DNA from: Lacinutrix sp. WUR7
Lineage (GTDB): Bacteria > Bacteroidota > Bacteroidia > Flavobacteriales > Flavobacteriaceae
Assembly: GCF_016864015.1 (NCBI RefSeq)
Contig: NZ_CP045067.1
Span: forward strand, 593,001 to 657,000
Direction: 5' to 3'
DNA length: 64,000 nt
Every line of letters begins with the position of its first letter. The stretch's first letter is position 1. Position numbers and translations under genes: made by a program. Shown here piece by piece: positions 19,594-36,024 of the stretch. The notes beneath the pieces were generated by a model, which was not told where the DNA came from, did not search any database, and worked only from the letters and a program-made list of their open reading frames with translations.

Positions 19594-20760
19594 ATGAATT
19601 CCATAACACTAGAACCATTTATACATAATGCAAAAAGTTGTATCGCGATTAAATTTGCTTATAATTTTGAAGTCAAAGAATATATAAAAAAATTTAATGG
19701 TGTGTATTGGACCAAAACACACAGAACATTTTATATTTATTATGACGAGGTTAGACTACAAGAACTAAAAGTTTACATTAAAAAAGAAAACTTACGCCTT
19801 TTAGAAAGTCCTAATAAAAATAGTATTCCACGATACAGCAAAGGTCTCAAAGTAGAGCTAAACCCTTTAAACAAAGAAAAAACGGAAGTCTATAGTCACT
19901 TTTTAGAATTTTTAAAAGGAAAAAGATTTAGCAAGAGTACTATTGCCGCTTATGGAGGTTTTATACTCGAATTTTTACGCTTTACAGACTCAAAACCTGT
20001 CAACGAACTTAATGAAAACGATGTAAGGCATTATATAGAATGGACGGTTGATAAATTAAATTATGCAGTTAGCACACATAGACAAATGGTAAGTGGTTTT
20101 AAGCATTTTGCTTATTTCTACCCTGCATGTTCTATAGATATAGATAAAGTCTATATGCCTAAAAAAGACAAAAAACTTCCAATTGTATTAAGTATAGAAG
20201 AAGTATTTTCCATATTACAAGTAACAAAAAACTTAAAACATCGTACCATTATAGCAATGCTTTATGGCTCTGGATTACGCATAGGAGAAATTATAGATTT
20301 AAAACTTAGTGATTTTGATTTTAGAAGAAAGCAGTTATATGTAAAAAACTCAAAAGGCAGAAAAGACAGATACACTACTATCGCCGAAAGTCTTTTCCCA
20401 TTATTGAAAAATTATCATAATACCTATGCACCAAAACAATATTTTATAGAGAACCCTAAAGGCGGTAAATACACTGCAGGATCTATACGTGCATTTCTTG
20501 CAAGAAACACTAAAGCTGCTGGAATACTAAAACCGGTAACACCACATACTTTACGTCATAGTTATGCCACACATATGTTAGAACAAGGTACAGATATTCG
20601 TTACATACAAGAACTACTAGGCCACAGCAGACCAGAAACCACAATGATTTATACACATGTATCTAGAAAAGATTTACAACAAATAAAGAGCCCTTTGGAT
20701 AATGCAATTAAACAATTATCTTTACAGGATAACGTCAACACAAAACTAACGATATCCTGA
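19594..20760 (+). CDS. Tyrosine recombinase heading an integron-like cassette array
   Basis: 388 residues. The catalytic set of the family is complete: Arg229 (YGSGLRIGEI), a lysine in NSKGRKDR, His318 and Arg321 (HTLRHSYATHML), His344 (LLGHSRPETT) and Tyr353 (MIYTHV). Residues ~95-185 are a SAM-like core-binding domain (FLKGKRFSKSTIAAYGGFILEFLRF). An extra ~90-residue N-terminal domain precedes it. The tail RKDLQQIKSPLDNA resembles the ...SPLD ending of integron integrases, but the extra block those enzymes carry between the catalytic patches is not apparent, so this is not a textbook IntI. The start is ATG 19594; the frame is open further back into pnp, but that would ignore the terminator. 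It reads toward the attI-like point 42 nt beyond its stop. Confidence 0.9.
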   Translation: MNSITLEPFIHNAKSCIAIKFAYNFEVKEYIKKFNGVYWTKTHRTFYIYYDEVRLQELKVYIKKENLRLLESPNKNSIPRYSKGLKVELNPLNKEKTEVYSHFLEFLKGKRFSKSTIAAYGGFILEFLRFTDSKPVNELNENDVRHYIEWTVDKLNYAVSTHRQMVSGFKHFAYFYPACSIDIDKVYMPKKDKKLPIVLSIEEVFSILQVTKNLKHRTIIAMLYGSGLRIGEIIDLKLSDFDFRRKQLYVKNSKGRKDRYTTIAESLFPLLKNYHNTYAPKQYFIENPKGGKYTAGSIRAFLARNTKAAGILKPVTPHTLRHSYATHMLEQGTDIRYIQELLGHSRPETTMIYTHVSRKDLQQIKSPLDNAIKQLSLQDNVNTKLTIS

Positions 20761-20802
20761 TCTATTTACGGGATATAATCAATAAATGTGATGATATAAC
20801 AC

Positions 20803-20810
20803 GTTGGCAA
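20803..20810 (+). other. attI-like cassette entry point (GTTGGCAA)
   Basis: GTTGGCAA, 42 nt after the recombinase stop, is the exact inverse of TTGCCAAC at 25083-25090, where the first attC-like site begins. In an integron the junction G|TT marks the left edge of the newest cassette. The 42 nt between the stop codon and this point contain a loose GATATCC/GGGATAT inverted repeat. Assignment depends on the array interpretation. Confidence 0.6.
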
Positions 20811-20855
20811 TAATTTTGACCCGTCCTGAAATAAGGCTACATAATTTTAAACATT

Positions 20856-21227
20856 ATGTATAGAAATGACAAAGTAATTAGACGTTACAGTGAGCCTTTT
20901 AAATTAAAAATTTTAGCCGAACTTACAATCGGAAAACACACAAAGAGTGAACTTTGTAAACTCTACTCTATTGCACCTACAACAGTAAACGTGTGGATTA
21001 AAAAGTATAATCGTAAAGACTTAATGAACACCAGAGTAAAAGTGGAAACAAAAGACGAAATATCTAGAATAAAAGCACTTCAAAAAGAGGTTGAACAACT
21101 TAAAAAACTACTACTTAAAAAGGATCTCGATGCTATGGTACAGGATTGTTATCTTGAAGTAGCAGCTGAAGATCTTGGTTATAAATCAGTTAATGAACTA
21201 AAAAAAAAGCTAAGTATAAAGCCTTAA
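20856..21227 (+). CDS. IS3-family transposase OrfA
   Basis: 123 residues. N-terminal helix-turn-helix (YSEPFKLKILAELTIGKHTKSELCKLYSIAPTTVNVWIKKY) for binding the IS ends, then a leucine-zipper-like coiled coil (ISRIKALQKEVEQLKKLLLKK) used for multimerisation. The last part contains the A9G run at 21200-21209, where a fraction of ribosomes should shift into the OrfB frame. Confidence 0.93.
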   Translation: MYRNDKVIRRYSEPFKLKILAELTIGKHTKSELCKLYSIAPTTVNVWIKKYNRKDLMNTRVKVETKDEISRIKALQKEVEQLKKLLLKKDLDAMVQDCYLEVAAEDLGYKSVNELKKKLSIKP

Positions 21228-22078
21228 GTAAAGCTAAAAAAAGATCTAAGGGATTTGCTTCTTTAACAACTATAACCCATTGTTTTGGACTTAAACGCAA
21301 TGCTTATTACAAGCATAAAAACAGAGCTGATAAGCGTTTAAAACTAGAACAACAGATTATAGATATTGTTAGAAAAAGACGCAAATCCCTTCCTAGAGAA
21401 GGTGTTCGCAAACTTACCAGGTCCTTAGATAAAGAGTTTGTTAAAGCTAACATTAAAGTAGGTAGAGATACACTATTCAAAGTACTTAGGAAATATAATA
21501 TGCTTACACTTAGAAAGAAAACCAGTGCTAGAACTACGAACTCTTATCATCGTTTTTATAAATACAATAACATTATAAAAGACCTAGAAGTTACTAGAGC
21601 GAACCAAGTTTGGGTATCTGATATCACATACATTAGAACCATAAAGGGCTTTTGTTATCTGGCTTTAATAACAGATATGCATTCCAGAAAAATAGTCGGT
21701 TATGACCTAAGTGATAGTTTAGAGTTAAATGGATGTGTAAGAGCGCTTAAGAAGGCAATTTATCAAGCTAAAAACATTAAGCAACTTATTCATCATTCGG
21801 ATAGAGGAATACAGTATTGTAGCAATGTATACACACAAATTCTTAAAAGAAAAAAGATAGATATTAGTATGACTGAAGAAAATCATTGTTACGAAAACGC
21901 AATGGCAGAACGTGTAAATGGAATTTTAAAAGATGAATTTTATTTAGACCAAACCTTTGATAACGTGAGTCACGCAAAGAGAGCTGCAAAAAATGCAATT
22001 AATTTGTACAATGAAGTAAGATTACATTTATCTTTAGATTATAAAACACCAAATATGGTATATAAATTATCAGCTTAA
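21197..22078 (+). CDS. IS3-family transposase OrfB (made as OrfAB by -1 frameshift)
   Basis: Catalytic DDE domain in the -1 frame relative to OrfA, open from just after a TGA at 21194-21196 to 22078. The triad is visible: Asp in VWVSDITYI, Asp in HHSDRGIQY and Glu in ENAMAERVNG, with 35 residues between the last two (D-D-35-E). There is no early start codon; the first ATG (21500) would lose the HTH_21-like segment (LPREGVRKLTRSLDKEF). Translation therefore depends on fusion with OrfA at the slippery site. It is not a pseudogene. Confidence 0.9.
   Translation, partial: TKKKAKYKALSKAKKRSKGFASLTTITHCFGLKRNAYYKHKNRADKRLKLEQQIIDIVRKRRKSLPREGVRKLTRSLDKEFVKANIKVGRDTLFKVLRKYNMLTLRKKTSARTTNSYHRFYKYNNIIKDLEVTRANQVWVSDITYIRTIKGFCYLALITDMHSRKIVGYDLSDSLELNGCVRALKKAIYQAKNIKQLIHHSDRGIQYCSNVYTQILKRKKIDISMTEENHCYENAMAERVNGILKDEFYLDQTFDNVSHAKRAAKNAINLYNEVRLHLSLDYKTPNMVYKLSA
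21203..21209 (+). promoter_or_regulatory. Programmed -1 ribosomal frameshift heptamer A-AAA-AAG
   Basis: Within OrfA the zero-frame codons read CTA AAA AAA AAG, so A_AAA_AAG fits X_XXY_YYZ exactly and moves ribosomes to the OrfB frame. The same heptamer is used by other IS3 elements. Confidence 0.85.
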
Positions 22079-22148
22079 TTCAATTTTAACCTGTAGCCAT
22101 ATTTCAGGACAAGACATTTGAAGAAAAAGCAGACTCTAAAGATTTTTC

Positions 22149-22352
22149 TTATTCAATATACTCTAAAATATCAGCAGGTTGACAATTTAAAGCTTTACAA
22201 ATTGACTCTAAGGTCGAAAAACGAATTGCTTTAGCTTTACCTGACTTCAATATAGATAAGTTTGCTGTAGTTATCCCAATAATTTCAGCTAACTCTTTAC
22301 TCTTCATTTTTCGTTTAGCCAGCATGACATCCAAATTAACTATAATTGCCAT
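22149..22352 (-). CDS. Small Xre/Cro-type HTH regulator
   Basis: 67 residues comprising just a helix-turn-helix domain (MLAKRKMKSKELAEIIGITTANLSILKSGKAKAIRFSTLESICKALNCQPADILEYIE), the compact type common next to DUF2975 membrane proteins. It starts 2 nt after the stop of that upstream gene and is co-transcribed with it. Likely a DNA-binding regulator of this two-gene unit; the target is unknown. Confidence 0.88.
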   Translation of the reverse strand: MAIIVNLDVMLAKRKMKSKELAEIIGITTANLSILKSGKAKAIRFSTLESICKALNCQPADILEYIE

Positions 22353-22354
22353 AC

Positions 22355-22894
22355 TTATATTGTTAAATTATTTTCTTCTTGTAATTGAATACCTTTTTTA
22401 AATACATCAATATACAGATATACTATTATACCCACACAACCGTGAATGAAAATCATAATAAGTTCTTCTTCAATATTTTCATTTTTTTGTTTTAAAGAAC
22501 TATACAAAACAACCAAAATATTTATAGCTAAAGGAATAAGATTTAACCTGAAAAATATAATAAGTTTTTTTAATGATTCCTTATTAAATAAATTATTTTT
22601 TGTGAAAATTTGAAAAAAATCTTTTAGTGTATAAAAATAGATGGAGTAAAACAACAACCACAGCCACATAAATAATATACTGTAAGAGAAATTATAAGAA
22701 AAAACGGCATTAATGAAAGGTATTGTAATCTGAGCGTTAAAATTTTCATTACCCTCTAAAACAGCAACAAAAGGCATATCAAAACCAAAGTATTTTTCTA
22801 AAAAAGATAATATAGACAGTAGGAATATAAAAACAAAACAAGTACTAAACACATAAAAAAAAGCTTGTGCACATTTAGATATAATTTTTTTCAT
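22355..22894 (-). CDS. DUF2975-type membrane protein paired with HTH regulator
   Basis: 179 residues with four hydrophobic segments (AFFYVFSTCFVFIFLLSILSF; YSILFMWLWLLFYSIYFYTL; LIIFFRLNLIPLAINILVVLY; IMIFIHGCVGIIVYLYIDVF) and the typical C-terminal FKKGIQLQEENNLTI that leads into the HTH gene. Function of the family is not established; the gene order membrane protein then Xre regulator is conserved in many bacteria. Part of cassette 1 and read against the array direction. Confidence 0.8.
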   Translation of the reverse strand: MKKIISKCAQAFFYVFSTCFVFIFLLSILSFLEKYFGFDMPFVAVLEGNENFNAQITIPFINAVFSYNFSYSILFMWLWLLFYSIYFYTLKDFFQIFTKNNLFNKESLKKLIIFFRLNLIPLAINILVVLYSSLKQKNENIEEELIMIFIHGCVGIIVYLYIDVFKKGIQLQEENNLTI

Positions 22895-23050
22895 TAATTT
22901 TAAATAATTAGTTGGAAATATAACAAGTTTATAATAATTTTATTTTCTTTAAATCATCATCACTTAAAATTTTAATAGTAATTGATGTTTTTTTTTTAAC
23001 ATTTTACATAATTTGACACCATTTAGCATCCTTTGACTGTAAGAAAAATC

Positions 23051-24967
23051 TTATTTATTTAACCAAACTTTCCTTACTTCCTTTTGTTCTATAGTAGCTT
23101 TATCATTCTCAATTAAAGAAACACTCTTACCGTATGCTTTAGTTAATTTTGTTTTAATCAAAACAGGATTTCCATTACGTTCAAGTTCTAATGAGACATC
23201 TTGTCCTTCTTTCCAAGCATACATACCACCAATAATTTGTTGAGCATTTGCTATGTTTAATTCTACTTCATTTACTTTTTTTATTATATCACCGGCTTGT
23301 ACGCCTTGTGTTTTCCAAAATGAATTATTTAATGCCATGCGAGTGAAAAACATAGCGTTTTTTTCTTCATCTGCGTCAAAAATTATATTCTGTCCTCCAG
23401 CAAAAATGTAGTTTGTAGGAGTTTCAGATTCGACCAAAGCTAAACCAACCATTGCAAAATATTTACTATAATCAATTGGCACATTACCTTCAACATGTGT
23501 TTTTAAAAAATTCCCAATACTTGGATAGGTCATTGCTGTAATTTCGTCTATAAATTTATCATCCATAAAAGGTTTGTTTCTGCCATATTTTGCAGATAAT
23601 TCTTTCATTAATGAAAGTAAACTCCTATTTCCGTTACTTTCTTTGCGTATTAAGATGTCCATGCACATACCTATTAATGCACCTTTCATATAAACATTAT
23701 AATATTGAGATGCATACGGTTCCTCCAATACATTCTCGCTCATTTCAGTAAAACTCAGTGCATCATTTAAGTTTTTAGAATTGTTAATCTTTGACATTAC
23801 GGTATTGTAAAAGGTTGTGTTATCTATTAACCCTTCATATACTTGAAAGTGCTGTGCAAAATACTCAGTTACACCTTCATACATCCAAAGATGCTTTGAA
23901 AATGTTGGATTATTATAATCAAAATAATGAACATCCTCTGAATGTACGGATAATGGAGAAACAATATGAAAAAATTCATGTGCAACAACATCTATTATGG
24001 ATTCTGCCAATTCTTCATTAGATGATGACTCTGGTAATACAACTACTGTTGATGTGTGATGTTCTAATGCACCCATTCCTTTTGGAGAAGTTTCATTTTC
24101 CTCAGATAAATATAAATATATATCGTATCGATTTGTGCTGTTAAGATCTCCTAAATATTGCTTTTGAGCTTGCATCATTTTATATACAGTTTCTTTTTGA
24201 TTTGCAGCTGTATGTACTTTATTTGGAGAATAAACACTTAATCCAATTTTGATATTCCCAACCATAAATTCTTCAACATCTAATTTCCCATACATCATTG
24301 GGTTATCAATAATATCAAAATAACGTGTTGCAAAATAACTGTCTGTTAAATATTGGCCATCAGCACTGATCTTTGTTCCTTTGTTCTTCAAAGATGAAGT
24401 TCTCACAAAATGGGATGGCGAGGTAACATCTAAGGTATATTGGTTGTTTTTTAAAGAATCGAAATAGCCTATAAACCCATGGAGATTTAATACAAAATTA
24501 TCTGTTTCTATATTTGTGCCTGATGGCGAAACTGGGTGTCCTCCACCAATTCCACCACTAGTTTCAGTATCAAAAGTATCGTTAACGTAATATATTAATT
24601 TATCCAATTTTGAAGCTTTTGCAATTGACCAGGTATTCTCATCTAATTTGGTTACAGATAATTCATTCCCCTGATAATCAATCGCTTTTAAATCATCAAT
24701 ATATTTTCCAAAGTCACTAATGGAGTAGGTTCCTTGTATTACTCTTGGCAATCTATAAGTTACTGATTCTGCAGTAAATCGACCAGGGTTAATAGTTACT
24801 GGCACTTTGTCGCCTACTACTGCTGTTAGATCCAATGTTGTTTCAATAGGATTGTTAATTGCTAAATCATTTTTTCTTGGAGTAACAGATACACAGCCAG
24901 ATAGCGATGCAATAAGCGTAAAAAGCACTGGTAAAATTAACACTAATAATATTTTCTTAATTTTCAT
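23051..24967 (-). CDS. M61-family (glycyl aminopeptidase-like) metallopeptidase lipoprotein with PDZ domain
   Basis: 638 residues. The lipoprotein signal ends LSGC (Cys25), so it is anchored in the periplasm or outer membrane. An N-terminal beta domain is followed by the zinc site HEFFH (residues 330-334) with the third ligand Glu364 in WMYEGVTEYF, then a C-terminal PDZ (about 540-610; GVQAGDIIKKVNEVELNIANAQQ). This domain order is that of M61 peptidases. It has its own promoter, unusual for a cassette gene but expected for one in the reverse orientation. Nothing in it looks broken. Confidence 0.92.
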   Translation of the reverse strand: MKIKKILLVLILPVLFTLIASLSGCVSVTPRKNDLAINNPIETTLDLTAVVGDKVPVTINPGRFTAESVTYRLPRVIQGTYSISDFGKYIDDLKAIDYQGNELSVTKLDENTWSIAKASKLDKLIYYVNDTFDTETSGGIGGGHPVSPSGTNIETDNFVLNLHGFIGYFDSLKNNQYTLDVTSPSHFVRTSSLKNKGTKISADGQYLTDSYFATRYFDIIDNPMMYGKLDVEEFMVGNIKIGLSVYSPNKVHTAANQKETVYKMMQAQKQYLGDLNSTNRYDIYLYLSEENETSPKGMGALEHHTSTVVVLPESSSNEELAESIIDVVAHEFFHIVSPLSVHSEDVHYFDYNNPTFSKHLWMYEGVTEYFAQHFQVYEGLIDNTTFYNTVMSKINNSKNLNDALSFTEMSENVLEEPYASQYYNVYMKGALIGMCMDILIRKESNGNRSLLSLMKELSAKYGRNKPFMDDKFIDEITAMTYPSIGNFLKTHVEGNVPIDYSKYFAMVGLALVESETPTNYIFAGGQNIIFDADEEKNAMFFTRMALNNSFWKTQGVQAGDIIKKVNEVELNIANAQQIIGGMYAWKEGQDVSLELERNGNPVLIKTKLTKAYGKSVSLIENDKATIEQKEVRKVWLNK

Positions 24968-24993
24968 TTTATTAATTTTTATATTTTAAGTTG

Positions 24994-25021
24994 CAAACTT
25001 AATAAAATTATTGAATAACAA
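24994..25021 (-). promoter_or_regulatory. M61 peptidase promoter
   Basis: On the minus strand: TTG (complement 25019-25021), 17-nt spacer, TAAGTTTG (complement 24994-25001). It lies 26 nt before the ATG, inside cassette 1. Confidence 0.65.
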
Positions 25022-25082
25022 CAATATATTTCCTTTTATAAATAATTTTAATACATAGAGAAAATTGTAAAGTAAAAAACTT

Positions 25083-25220
25083 TTGCCAACACCGTATAAA
25101 ATTAATTGCTAGCAAATCGCTTACTTACGAAAGTCCAAGCGGACTTTCTTGGTTCGTGTTTTATTTACTAAATTCACTGCTTAAAACACGCAACTAACCT
25201 TATACAACAACGTTAGCTAC
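25083..25220 (+). other. attC-like recombination site A
   Basis: TTGCCAAC (25083-25090) begins it and GTTAGCTAC (25212-25220) ends it. The inner 16-nt arms are GTATAAAATTAATTGC (25094-25109) and GCAACTAACCTTATAC (25190-25205): 13 Watson-Crick pairs plus three positions that are G-T wobbles on the bottom strand but A-C mismatches on the top. At the tip is the hairpin GAAAGTCC-AAGC-GGACTTTC, with a further CGTGTTTT/AAAACACG stem. Confidence 0.72.
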
Positions 25221-25597
25221 AATTACTCGGAAAAATTACCAACCAAAATTCTGCCAAGCTTTACGCTGAAAAAACCACTCAAAATCGGAATCAAATATTA
25301 CGGAATTATTTACTCGTCTGCTGAATTTACTCTTGCGGAATTTAACTAGTTGCGGAATAACCACTCCAACGGAATTAAAAAAACAAGATCACTTTTCGGA
25401 CTTCACTCAGAATTGAGCAATTCAGCGGAATAGAAAAAAAGCGTACTTACTCGAATGTCTCGTAAAAGTAGCTAACAACGCATAAAAAAAATTGCTATAT
25501 TTAGAACTAATTTTAAAGTCGTTGCTCTTTTGCTACTTCTGATTTTCCTACGGAAAATCCTCGCTCGCAAAAACGCAACTATTTTTATACAAGACCG
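25213..25597. mobile_element. Cassette 2, no recognisable gene
   Basis: 385 bp including site B. The ~250 bp before site B have no frame of 60 codons and no promoter that I can see. The short word CGGAAT occurs six times. It may be a non-coding or regulatory cassette, or the remains of a gene. Confidence 0.6.
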
Positions 25598-25605
25598 TTA
25601 TATAC
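25468..25605 (+). other. attC-like recombination site B
   Basis: GTAGCTAAC (25468-25476) to GTTATATAC (25597-25605). Arms GCATAAAAAAAATTGC (25480-25495) and GCAACTATTTTTATAC (25575-25590): two of the three imperfect positions become G-T wobbles on the bottom strand only. Tip hairpin GATTTTCC-TAC-GGAAAATC. The interior is nearly the same as site C. Confidence 0.75.
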
Positions 25606-26061
25606 AATTGCTCTGAAATTGTAACTCCTAATAAAACCGAATTACTAAAATCATAATTCATCGGAATTTTTTCTTACTCAAACTTTGAATTTGAAAACAA
25701 ACTCTGAATCTCACTCAAACGGAATTTTAGCTTGTTTGTGAAAACTGAATATAATACTGATTTTACTTCCGCGAAAATATCACTCAAATGGAAAATCACT
25801 TATGCGGAAAAAAGCCTGGTTTTCTTTCCGCGATTTTTTTGAGTTTTAAGAAATTAAATCCAACTCTAAAAATCTTGGAAAACTATTTCGGAATTTTTTC
25901 AAAACGCTCTCACTCTACTCTATCGCAAAAGTATATAACAACGCATAAAAAAAATTGCTATATTTAGAACTAAATTTAAAGATCGTTGCTCTTTTGCTAC
26001 ATCTGATTTTCCTACGGAAAATCCTCGCACACAAAAACGCAACTCTTTTTATACAACCACG
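25598..26061. mobile_element. Cassette 3, no recognisable gene
   Basis: 464 bp including site C. The ~325 bp ahead of site C hold no long reading frame; a 60-codon minus-strand frame runs through the attC itself and is not credible. Contains repeated CGGAATT like cassette 2. Confidence 0.6.
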
Positions 26062-26070
26062 TTGTAGCAC
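25931..26070 (+). other. attC-like recombination site C
   Basis: GTATATAAC (25931-25939) to GTTGTAGCAC (26061-26070). Arms GCATAAAAAAAATTGC (25943-25958) and GCAACTCTTTTTATAC (26039-26054): all three imperfect positions are G-T wobbles on the bottom strand. Same tip hairpin as site B. Confidence 0.75.
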
Positions 26071-26074
26071 ATTT

Positions 26075-26713
26075 ATGAAAACCGCAATCCAATTCATATT
26101 AATTCTTATTTTAAGCTCTTGTGCTTCTAAAAAAAGTATAGAGCGAAAGGTAATAACGGAATATAATTTTCAGAATATAACGGAAAGCTTTGATGCGAAA
26201 AAAATAAATTACATCGGACTTAAAAAATATTGTGTAGGCGGAATTCGGATTGAAATGCCGAATGAAAAAGATTGCAAAAATTGTTATTCCGAATATGACA
26301 TTTATATTTTTTGGACTATAAAAGGAAAATCATATGTCCAAAAATTTGATAATTGTAGTGAGTTTAATATTGTGGAGATTTTAGATTTTAAAGCAAATGA
26401 ATTTCTAAAAAAGAACACGTTGGAATTACAAACGGGAAAAGTTGGAAATTATAAAATTGACCAAGAAACATTTTCTTCAGTTTCTCATTCTTGCTTTCGG
26501 AATTATATTATCAATGACGGAAAAACAAAATATCAAAACGAATTTGACATTTATAATTTAACTGGAGAAAACGAAAACCTGAACTTCAAATCAAATAATG
26601 AATTAAAAATCATACAATTAGACAATAAATTGAATAAGATTATAAAAAGATTGGAAAACGAAAATCAATTTGAACGGAATAAAAAAACGTGCTACAACAC
26701 CCGTATAAAATAA
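26075..26713 (+). CDS. Cassette-borne lipoprotein of unknown function
   Basis: 212 residues, unrecognised. The lipoprotein signal MKTAIQFILILILSSC puts Cys16 as the lipid anchor. The rest is polar and lysine/asparagine-rich, with cysteines in KYCVGGIRIEMPNEKDCKNCYSEY and further on (DNCSEF, SHSCFRNY). I chose the ATG at 26075, five bases after the end of the attC-like site C, rather than an upstream frame through that site. The coding sequence ends inside the next attC (its last residues TCYNTRIK come from it), a packing familiar from integron cassettes. It has no evident promoter of its own. Confidence 0.75.
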   Translation: MKTAIQFILILILSSCASKKSIERKVITEYNFQNITESFDAKKINYIGLKKYCVGGIRIEMPNEKDCKNCYSEYDIYIFWTIKGKSYVQKFDNCSEFNIVEILDFKANEFLKKNTLELQTGKVGNYKIDQETFSSVSHSCFRNYIINDGKTKYQNEFDIYNLTGENENLNFKSNNELKIIQLDNKLNKIIKRLENENQFERNKKTCYNTRIK

Positions 26714-26720
26714 ATAAAAA
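26689..26720 (+). other. Truncated terminal attC-like site D
   Basis: GTGCTACAAC (26689-26698) is the exact inverse of the start of cassette 4. GTATAAAAT follows at 26703, as in arm A, but no matching right arm is found downstream. This appears to be the decayed far end of the array. Confidence 0.6.
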
Positions 26721-26819
26721 GTAAGATTCCGCAATAAACGCCAGTACTTTTCATTGCCTATTAAAAATTGAATTTTCTTTTCTTAGTTACCAAATTTGGA
26801 ATAAACCATAAGTATATTC

Positions 26820-35263: not shown

Positions 35264-35672
35264 ATGATTCTATTTTACTAAAAACTTCCTAATTAAAGAA
35301 TAATTTCTATTGATAGCATTCGAAAAACGGAGCGTATACAGATTATGATTAGCCTTGTAATTACGTAACTAATGGCTTTTCCATTTTTACTAAATAATAG
35401 CAATAAAAATCTAAGACAGTATTTACATACCATCCTGCTATTAGTAGTTTTATTCAGTGCCAACAGAATGAATTCTGAAGCCTGCGGGAGAACTTAAATG
35501 TACGAAATTATTTGAAGCTAAGCGAGTTACATAAAAATAAGTTAAAAACATATACCTTAATAGAAAGGAATATATCTGCGAAACATGTTGAAAAGCCAAC
35601 ATCTAGAAAAAGAAAGTATTAGCGCTATAAAATGTTCTTTGAAAGTGGAAAGTTGTTTATTCTTTTTTCTGA
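35264..35672. other. Gene-free region upstream of the sheath gene
   Basis: 409 bp with no coding frame and no clear TAnnTTTG element on either strand. A small palindrome (CAGAATGAATTCTG) lies near 35464. It probably contains the promoter of the sheath operon in a form I cannot recognise. Confidence 0.5.
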
Positions 35673-35945
35673 TTTGAAAAAAGAAAAGTTGCATTTACAA
35701 ATTCAAGGGCCCTTGATTGGACATGCTTAAAAGAGGGCTAACTTCGCTTTGCTCGTTTCTCCTCTAAAGCTCCGCTTTGAAAAAAGAAAAGTTGCATTTA
35801 CAAATTCAAGCGAGCTTGATTTGACATGCTTAAAAGAGCGCTAACTTCGCTTTGCTCGTTTCTCCTCTAAAGCTCCGCTTTGAAAAAAGAAAAGTTGCAT
35901 TTACAAATTCAAGCGAGCTTGATTTGACATGCAACTTTTCTTTTT
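35673..35945. repeat. 103-bp tandem repeat, about 2.6 copies
   Basis: Copies start at equivalent bases 35676, 35779 and 35882 (period 103). Each contains GAAAAGTTGCATTTAC, a small hairpin around TCAAG...CTTGA, and a segment AACTTCGCTTTGCTCG. The last, partial copy folds into a long stem because its beginning AAAAGAAAAGTTGCAT is the exact inverse of its end ATGCAACTTTTCTTTT. It adjoins the tRNA-Arg 3' end and may act as its terminator. Confidence 0.88.
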
Positions 35946-35950
35946 ATTCG

Positions 35951-36024
35951 TGACCTCGAGAGGGTTCGAACCTCCAACCATCAGAGCCGAAATCTGATAT
36001 TCTATCCAGTTGAACTACGAGGCC
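35951..36024 (-). tRNA. tRNA-Arg (anticodon TCG)
   Basis: The minus strand folds into a full cloverleaf: acceptor GGCCTCG with CGAGGTC (one G-T pair), anticodon stem TCAGA/TCTGA with loop TTTCGGC (anticodon TCG), T-arm GGAGG-TTCGAAC-CCTCT, discriminator A. 74 nt; the CCA end is not encoded. Confidence 0.95.

Follow-up and report, generated by a model that had tools for sequence, protein, structure and literature searches.

The window, a 64,000-nucleotide stretch of Lacinutrix sp. WUR7 (contig NZ_CP045067.1, positions 593,001 to 657,000), carries a gene for a tyrosine recombinase followed by an attI, a putative first cassette with an IS3-family insertion, and a short tandem array comprising three attC-type sites (A, B and C), the remnant of a fourth (D) and the cassettes bounded by them (Table 1). 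The locus is very likely a sedentary chromosomal integron whose recombinase acts on attI and on the attC-type sites, the recombination itself being inferred from the sequence. A 103-bp repeat occurs outside the integron in three tandem copies (35668-35976) with 90-93% identity.

Table 1. Features of the proposed integron locus, in window positions.
Feature	Position	Strand	Basis and remarks
Tyrosine recombinase, 388 aa, proposed integron integrase	19594..20760	+	PF00589, E 3.9e-37; orthologs head cassette arrays
attI, GATATAACAC-G|TT core ~43 nt after integrase stop	20775..20803	+	Crossover 20803 (G)/20804 (T)
Putative first cassette, 4.4 kb, starts TTGGCAATAATTT, ends in site A	20804..25212	+	Start box vs site A R''
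IS3-family insertion	20817..22117	+	NF033516; 9-10 nt after cassette-start box; 3-bp target duplication TTT
Site A, attC-type	25087..25215	- (bottom strand)	Crossover 25212/25213; R1 112 bits; folds
Cassette A-B, 385 bp, no long ORF	25213..25597	+	Relatives 87-93% in other arrays and species
Site B, attC-type	25473..25600	-	Crossover 25597/25598; R1 125.6 bits; folds
Cassette B-C, 464 bp, no long ORF	25598..26061	+	100% identical to distant cassette
Site C, attC-type	25936..26064	-	Crossover 26061/26062; R1 127.7 bits; folds
Cassette C-D gene, predicted lipoprotein, ~212 aa	26075..26713	+	ORF/translation, first ATG past site C; orientation as sites
Remnant of site D, the R''/L'' half (GTGCTACAACACCCGTATAAAATAAA) without its L'/R' counterpart	26689..26730	-	R'' match

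The original prediction for this locus stated that sites A, B and C have 16-nt arms with three imperfect positions each, and that G·T wobbles account for eight of these nine positions on the bottom strand and are absent from the top strand, where A·C or A·A mismatches occur instead. Direct reading of the sequence confirmed all of this. On the bottom strand the arms of site A (GTATAAGGTTAGTTGC with GCAATTAATTTTATAC) and of site C (GTATAAAAAGAGTTGC with GCAATTTTTTTTATGC) contain three G·T pairs each, while those of site B (GTATAAAAATAGTTGC with GCAATTTTTTTTATGC) contain two G·T pairs and one T·T, which is the ninth position. Folding of the intervals 25083-25220, 25468-25605 and 25931-26070 with DNA parameters favored the bottom strand in all three cases, with bottom and top strand energies of -19.6 and -15.7 kcal/mol for site A, -15.7 and -14.4 for site B and -18.6 and -16.7 for site C (advantages of 3.9, 1.3 and 1.9 kcal/mol, respectively). 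The predicted attC-type nature of the sites was supported, the direction of the bias being the one used by known integrons. The role of the folded bottom strand as the actual substrate is an inference from sequence alone, without recombination data.

The prediction had allowed that sites B and C are related copies, and larger site sets indicate that the bias is due neither to chance nor only to this kinship, as it held at scale over hundreds of sites. In 17 starting sites, picked by sequence motif alone without a structure model, 44 stem G·T pairs were found on the bottom strand and one on the top strand (outermost pair left out). Covariance models of the bottom strand, the first built from these 17 sites and the second from 90 sites, were used on relatives, and it must be borne in mind that the models which gathered most of the sites were thus trained on the bottom strand. 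Outer-stem G·T pairs numbered 209 on the bottom and 7 on the top strand in 92 sites from many genera, and the bottom strand gave the better fold in 83 of 89 sites (median -2.5 kcal/mol) and in 65 of 73 distinct arm pairs. A set of 127 matches from three long arrays, namely the second integron of this genome (G000) and the arrays of the relative G020, gave 326 against 5 G·T pairs, with the bottom fold better in 107 of 115 distinct sites. The outermost R-box pair serves as an internal control, since its two sides belong to different cassettes once integrated, and it is unbiased (G·T bottom to top 22:24 in the 92-site set and 28:27 in the 127-match set). One G·T pair is invariant, being present in 86 of 86 sites in one set and in 126 of 126 in the three-array set. 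Most wobbles sit at two near-fixed positions, so the sites are not independent witnesses; most other varying positions also lean to bottom-strand G·T. The whole-fold gap between the strands is modest, at about 2-3 kcal/mol. Covariation is strong, with 278 double-change cells compared to 89 in shuffled data, and both it and the strand bias are regarded as demonstrated.

The canonical attC plan is met by these sites, with R and L boxes, a spacer, a variable terminal part and bottom-strand pairing. In canonical attC, strand choice is mainly directed by an extrahelical base (PMC2727003). No counterpart of this base, an unpaired G in L'', was found in the 87-row alignment, which has no conserved unpaired base in the L stem and shows stem inserts in 1-11 of its 87 rows; this result is dependent on the alignment. 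The asymmetries that were found are the invariant G·T pair and an unequal central spacer of about 6 nt versus 3 nt. The apparent strand mark, of which the original prediction was unaware, is not the extrahelical base of canonical sites but the invariant G·T pair; its role as a mark is an inference.

It is known for integrons that R'' and the start of the cassette it belongs to are complementary, the two lying a gene's length apart in the array. Canonical R'' boxes match the cassette start over 9-11 nt (PMC2727003), and the sites described here resemble them in this respect. For 16 cassettes, R'' and the cassette's own start were complementary at 103 of 112 positions (permuted mean 44.3; reached by 0 of 200,000 permutations), and for 119 further cassettes at 778 of 833 (permuted mean 317, sd 16), whereas R'' and the following R' within the integrated site agreed at only 37 of 112. 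The remnant of site D likewise has an R'' that is the exact 10-nt reverse complement of the start of the C-D cassette. A model-free scan for chained pairs of R'' and cassette start did not rise above reversed-sequence controls and was dropped. The cassette boundary is (C)G|TT, and blocks of identity end at G|TT. In the three long arrays all 127 sites lie on one strand, with 89 cassette ORFs running along the array direction and 2 against it. At a distance of 1.33 Mb there is a cassette with different neighbours that is identical to cassette B-C over 464 of 464 bp, which shows copying as exact units but does not on its own name the enzyme. The anatomy of the sites, their crossover point, the orientation of the arrays and the sharing of an identical cassette by two arrays are reported as demonstrated.

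These data bear on two other explanations. The sites could be dispersed repeats spread by homologous recombination or by another transposon without site-specific recombination, as suggested by the many similar repeats and by the IS elements found in the arrays. This can be virtually ruled out, given that identity blocks end at G|TT, that 127 of 127 sites share one orientation and that an attI lies beside the recombinase gene; moreover, a repeat would not maintain complementarity between R'' and the cassette start. Alternatively, the hairpins could function at the RNA level, as terminators or antisense elements in bottom-strand transcripts, with G·T being G·U, in line with their being stable, imperfect and intergenic and with a covariation that tolerates G·U. 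This leaves the integrase, attI and the exact cassette units unexplained. It also cannot account for the match of R'' across whole cassettes, for which reason an RNA-only reading was rejected, and it is next to excluded. A search of Rfam gave no credible match, only a single sub-threshold chance match to a microRNA family.

The original prediction did not know of the integrase gene and attI, which lie 5 kb upstream in the same window, nor that the integrase differs from the canonical IntI type. The attI motif was found 3' of 33 of 37 orthologous integrases, and the same point was picked independently by first-cassette complementarity in most relatives tested. Three sister species have a nearly identical attI flank up to G|TT and different cassettes thereafter. 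Across four species of the genus, attI is common to all as far as G|TT, beyond which their sequences differ. Both attI and the G|TT crossover were placed by sequence inference, and attI is taken as shown. The start box of the putative first cassette agrees with the R'' of site A at 6 of 7 variable positions, with 8 contiguous nt (TTGGCAA after G|TT). This cassette is probably disrupted or composite, as judged only from its sequence, because an IS3 element and minus-strand genes lie inside it. The latter encode a DUF2975 protein and an M61 peptidase (22358-24967, minus strand, within the box-marked cassette), and this stretch may be a composite or a rearrangement between the integrase and the array.

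A number of further observations were made around attI and the cassette starts. Seven copies of the IS3-family element were seen in this genome (that of the window, L255, L266, L267, L269, L270 and L276), all in the same orientation and at the same point relative to the cassette start, 9-10 nt past a GTT-N7-AATT-like start box. The element seems to target cassette starts; two copies share one cassette, so fewer than seven may be independent. Some attI (L280, L195 and L153) have an inverted repeat beside the core, e.g., GATATAGACAATTGTCTATATC, and attI could in some lineages itself be hairpin-forming. A TAnnTTTG promoter-like box upstream of attI was present with at most one mismatch in 22 of 33 cases compared to 11.6 in shuffled sequences (exact matches 5 versus 0.9); the enrichment is only modest, and a cassette promoter at this position is no more than a suggestion.

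IntI proteins are defined and searched for by an additional domain (PMC9668308; PMC8352920), which has been reported to be necessary for integron recombination (PMC8352920; PMC9668308). The window recombinase has an extra N-terminal domain of ~90 aa and is without this IntI-specific domain of roughly 40 residues in the catalytic domain. It scores 207 bits against the TIGR02249 profile, compared to a curated cut-off of 265 and to 508.6 for IntI1, and the match falls into two stretches with profile positions 180-240 skipped. Where both motifs were found, the spacing from the KDR-type motif to HxLRH is 58-63 residues in the array-associated proteins and 100-101 residues in three of four IntI. In a maximum-likelihood tree the IntI proteins form a separate clade (support 100/99) with the Bacteroidota proteins outside, and a joint clade of IntI and the array-associated group was borderline (AU p 0.053), being neither shown nor clearly rejected. 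The profile score of the window recombinase for the archaeal XerA family is as high as that for integron integrase. XerA/NF040815 are the best NCBIfam and PDB neighbours of its core, and Foldseek with a structure model (pLDDT 82, pTM 0.52; used for the fold only and not for domain arrangement) found XerA and VchIntIA (2a3v) as the nearest structures. Relatives of ~280 aa in L149, L156 and L164 were rejected as integrases, having no properly oriented sites and forming their own branch in the tree, and the relative in L161 was not counted as one, there being no sites on the expected side.

It could be argued that the recombinase is indeed the integrase but acts on double-stranded, Xer-like core sites, with the hairpin and strand bias as side effects. 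XerA being among the closest solved relatives, the resemblance of attI to a double-stranded core site and the lack of the IntI additional domain all speak for this. However, compensatory changes over ~100 nt, an invariant G·T and wobbles lying almost wholly on one strand are hard to explain without selection on a bottom-strand hairpin, and we consider this alternative unlikely. Returning to the integron reading, it is very likely that the window recombinase carries out cassette recombination, but this is inferred in the absence of recombination data.

The genome is a single contig of 3.99 Mb with 49 model matches, mostly in three arrays, with 3-4 sites in the window, 14 at 1.943-1.956 Mb and about 18-20 at 2.556-2.591 Mb. 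The third array is headed by a second integrase (2592053-2593162) with its own attI, and the array at 1.94-1.956 Mb by an attI of the window type with a ~150-bp 3' remnant of the integrase gene, the gene itself having been lost. The latter would be compatible with integrase-less cassette arrays (CALIN) moved in trans by a canonical IntI, since only attI and the remnant are kept there. Against this, none of 60 relatives' genomes encodes a protein above the TIGR02249 cut-off, and one genus after another has arrays immediately 3' of the Bacteroidota recombinase, so that CALIN moved in this way appear very improbable. Among the same 60 relatives, a recombinase match at E 1e-45 or better was obtained in 38 genomes, of which 37 have sites, compared to 4 of the remaining 22 (Fisher 1.4e-10, uncorrected for phylogeny). 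The sites lie 3' of the integrase in the same orientation in 14 of 14 examined loci of relatives with sites next to the gene, in most loci with sites across the phylum and for most of 61 sites beside the integrases of named organisms. Such carriers include Seonamhaeicola aphaedonensis, Algibacter onchidii, Winogradskyella ursingii, Zunongwangia mangrovi, Flavobacterium aciduliphilum and Algoriphagus ornithinivorans. In the complete relative G020, 107 sites are spread over two arrays, 48 and 69 kb in length.

Some loci stood apart. On a contig of an uncultured Flavobacteriaceae (L204:1-4010) the integrase and the array diverge, and the first cassette begins 5' of the integrase; this layout is like that of classical integrons and an exception among the loci here. 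G025 has 35 sites and no recombinase match at E 1e-30, for which a lost integrase, an assembly gap or another enzyme are all conceivable. An IS110-family element (L021:11824-12816 and L279) splits attC-type sites, in both copies at an identical position (CATATACGT|ATTCC). This is reminiscent of the IS1111-attC group of integrons.

From these results the following mechanism can be proposed. The recombinase would insert cassettes at the attI just past its own stop codon and would excise or reshuffle them at sites A, B and C and the remnant D. A circular cassette would carry one site, the bottom strand of which would fold into a hairpin through R''-R' and L''-L' pairing; the hairpin could close in the circle since R'' is complementary to the bases with which its own cassette begins. 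Strands would be exchanged at (C)G|TT. The bottom strand would be the preferred fold because it keeps the invariant G·T and, in most cases, another G·T at positions where the top strand has A·C, and because the central spacer is unequal (6 nt versus 3). This choice of strand would fix cassette orientation, and genes would therefore be read away from attI. The recombinase as actor, the single-stranded bottom strand as substrate and G·T as strand mark are inferred throughout.

The locus is alike to the Vibrio superintegron and other sedentary chromosomal integrons (IntI, attI, attC/VCR) in having an integrase, an attI, single-gene cassettes in tandem and one orientation, and attC-type sites of ~125-130 nt with a G|TT crossover and a bottom-strand fold. 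The VCR is about 126 nt in length. It differs from them in an integrase without the additional domain, in the invariant G·T with no single extrahelical L-stem base, and in an integrase that is usually co-directional with the array and has attI at its 3' end. Co-directional integrases also occur in the inverted-integrase integrons of Treponema and others, whose integrases are of the IntI family (PMC8352920 makes mention of inverted IntIs). The role of XerA is the resolution of chromosome dimers at double-stranded dif. The window protein is set apart from XerA/NF040815 ("site-specific tyrosine recombinase/integron integrase") by its extra N-terminal domain and by lying at the head of cassette arrays. 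For the "Integron-like" subgroup of tyrosine recombinases, the insertion has been called essential for integron function (PMC8138268). The integron of Salinibacter ruber M1 is similar in being placed under Bacteroidetes and was found by IntI-based criteria (PMC9024848). Salinibacter is the only complete integron of Bacteroidetes named in that IntegronFinder 2.0 survey, which makes no mention of integrons in Flavobacteriaceae, and the same tool reported none in a Tenacibaculum genome (PMC10013915). No description of such elements in Flavobacteriaceae was found in the literature searched, which is weak evidence as preprints and most subscription journals lay outside the search.

The criteria for an integron platform are met, with a recombinase beside the array, an adjoining attI with G|TT, tandem cassettes in one orientation and complementarity of R'' with the cassette start. 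Several points speak against the integron reading, namely the missing additional domain, the equally high XerA score, a tree that does not place the recombinase inside IntI, the small energy gap, models trained on the bottom strand, G025, and a 4.4-kb first cassette with minus-strand genes, unlike a normal cassette. The locus is an integron in architecture but fails the usual IntI test, and because the feature defining IntI is missing it is reported here as a variant and not as a canonical integron. A bolder reading, towards which the evidence does not quite tip, is that of a separate Bacteroidota integron lineage derived from a XerA-like recombinase, in which folded single-stranded attC is recombined without the additional domain and with a G·T strand mark, the mechanism having evolved twice. 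One lineage that never had or has lost the domain, or a second origin, are both compatible with the data.

It appears likely that standard tools miss a phylum-wide gene-capture system of Bacteroidota running on a domain-less enzyme, the role of the enzyme being inferred. If domain-less integrases do run arrays of superintegron size across the phylum, a large gene-capture system would have been overlooked, the additional domain would not be essential to the integron mechanism, and strand selection by the recombinase would become testable on a system with a different mark.
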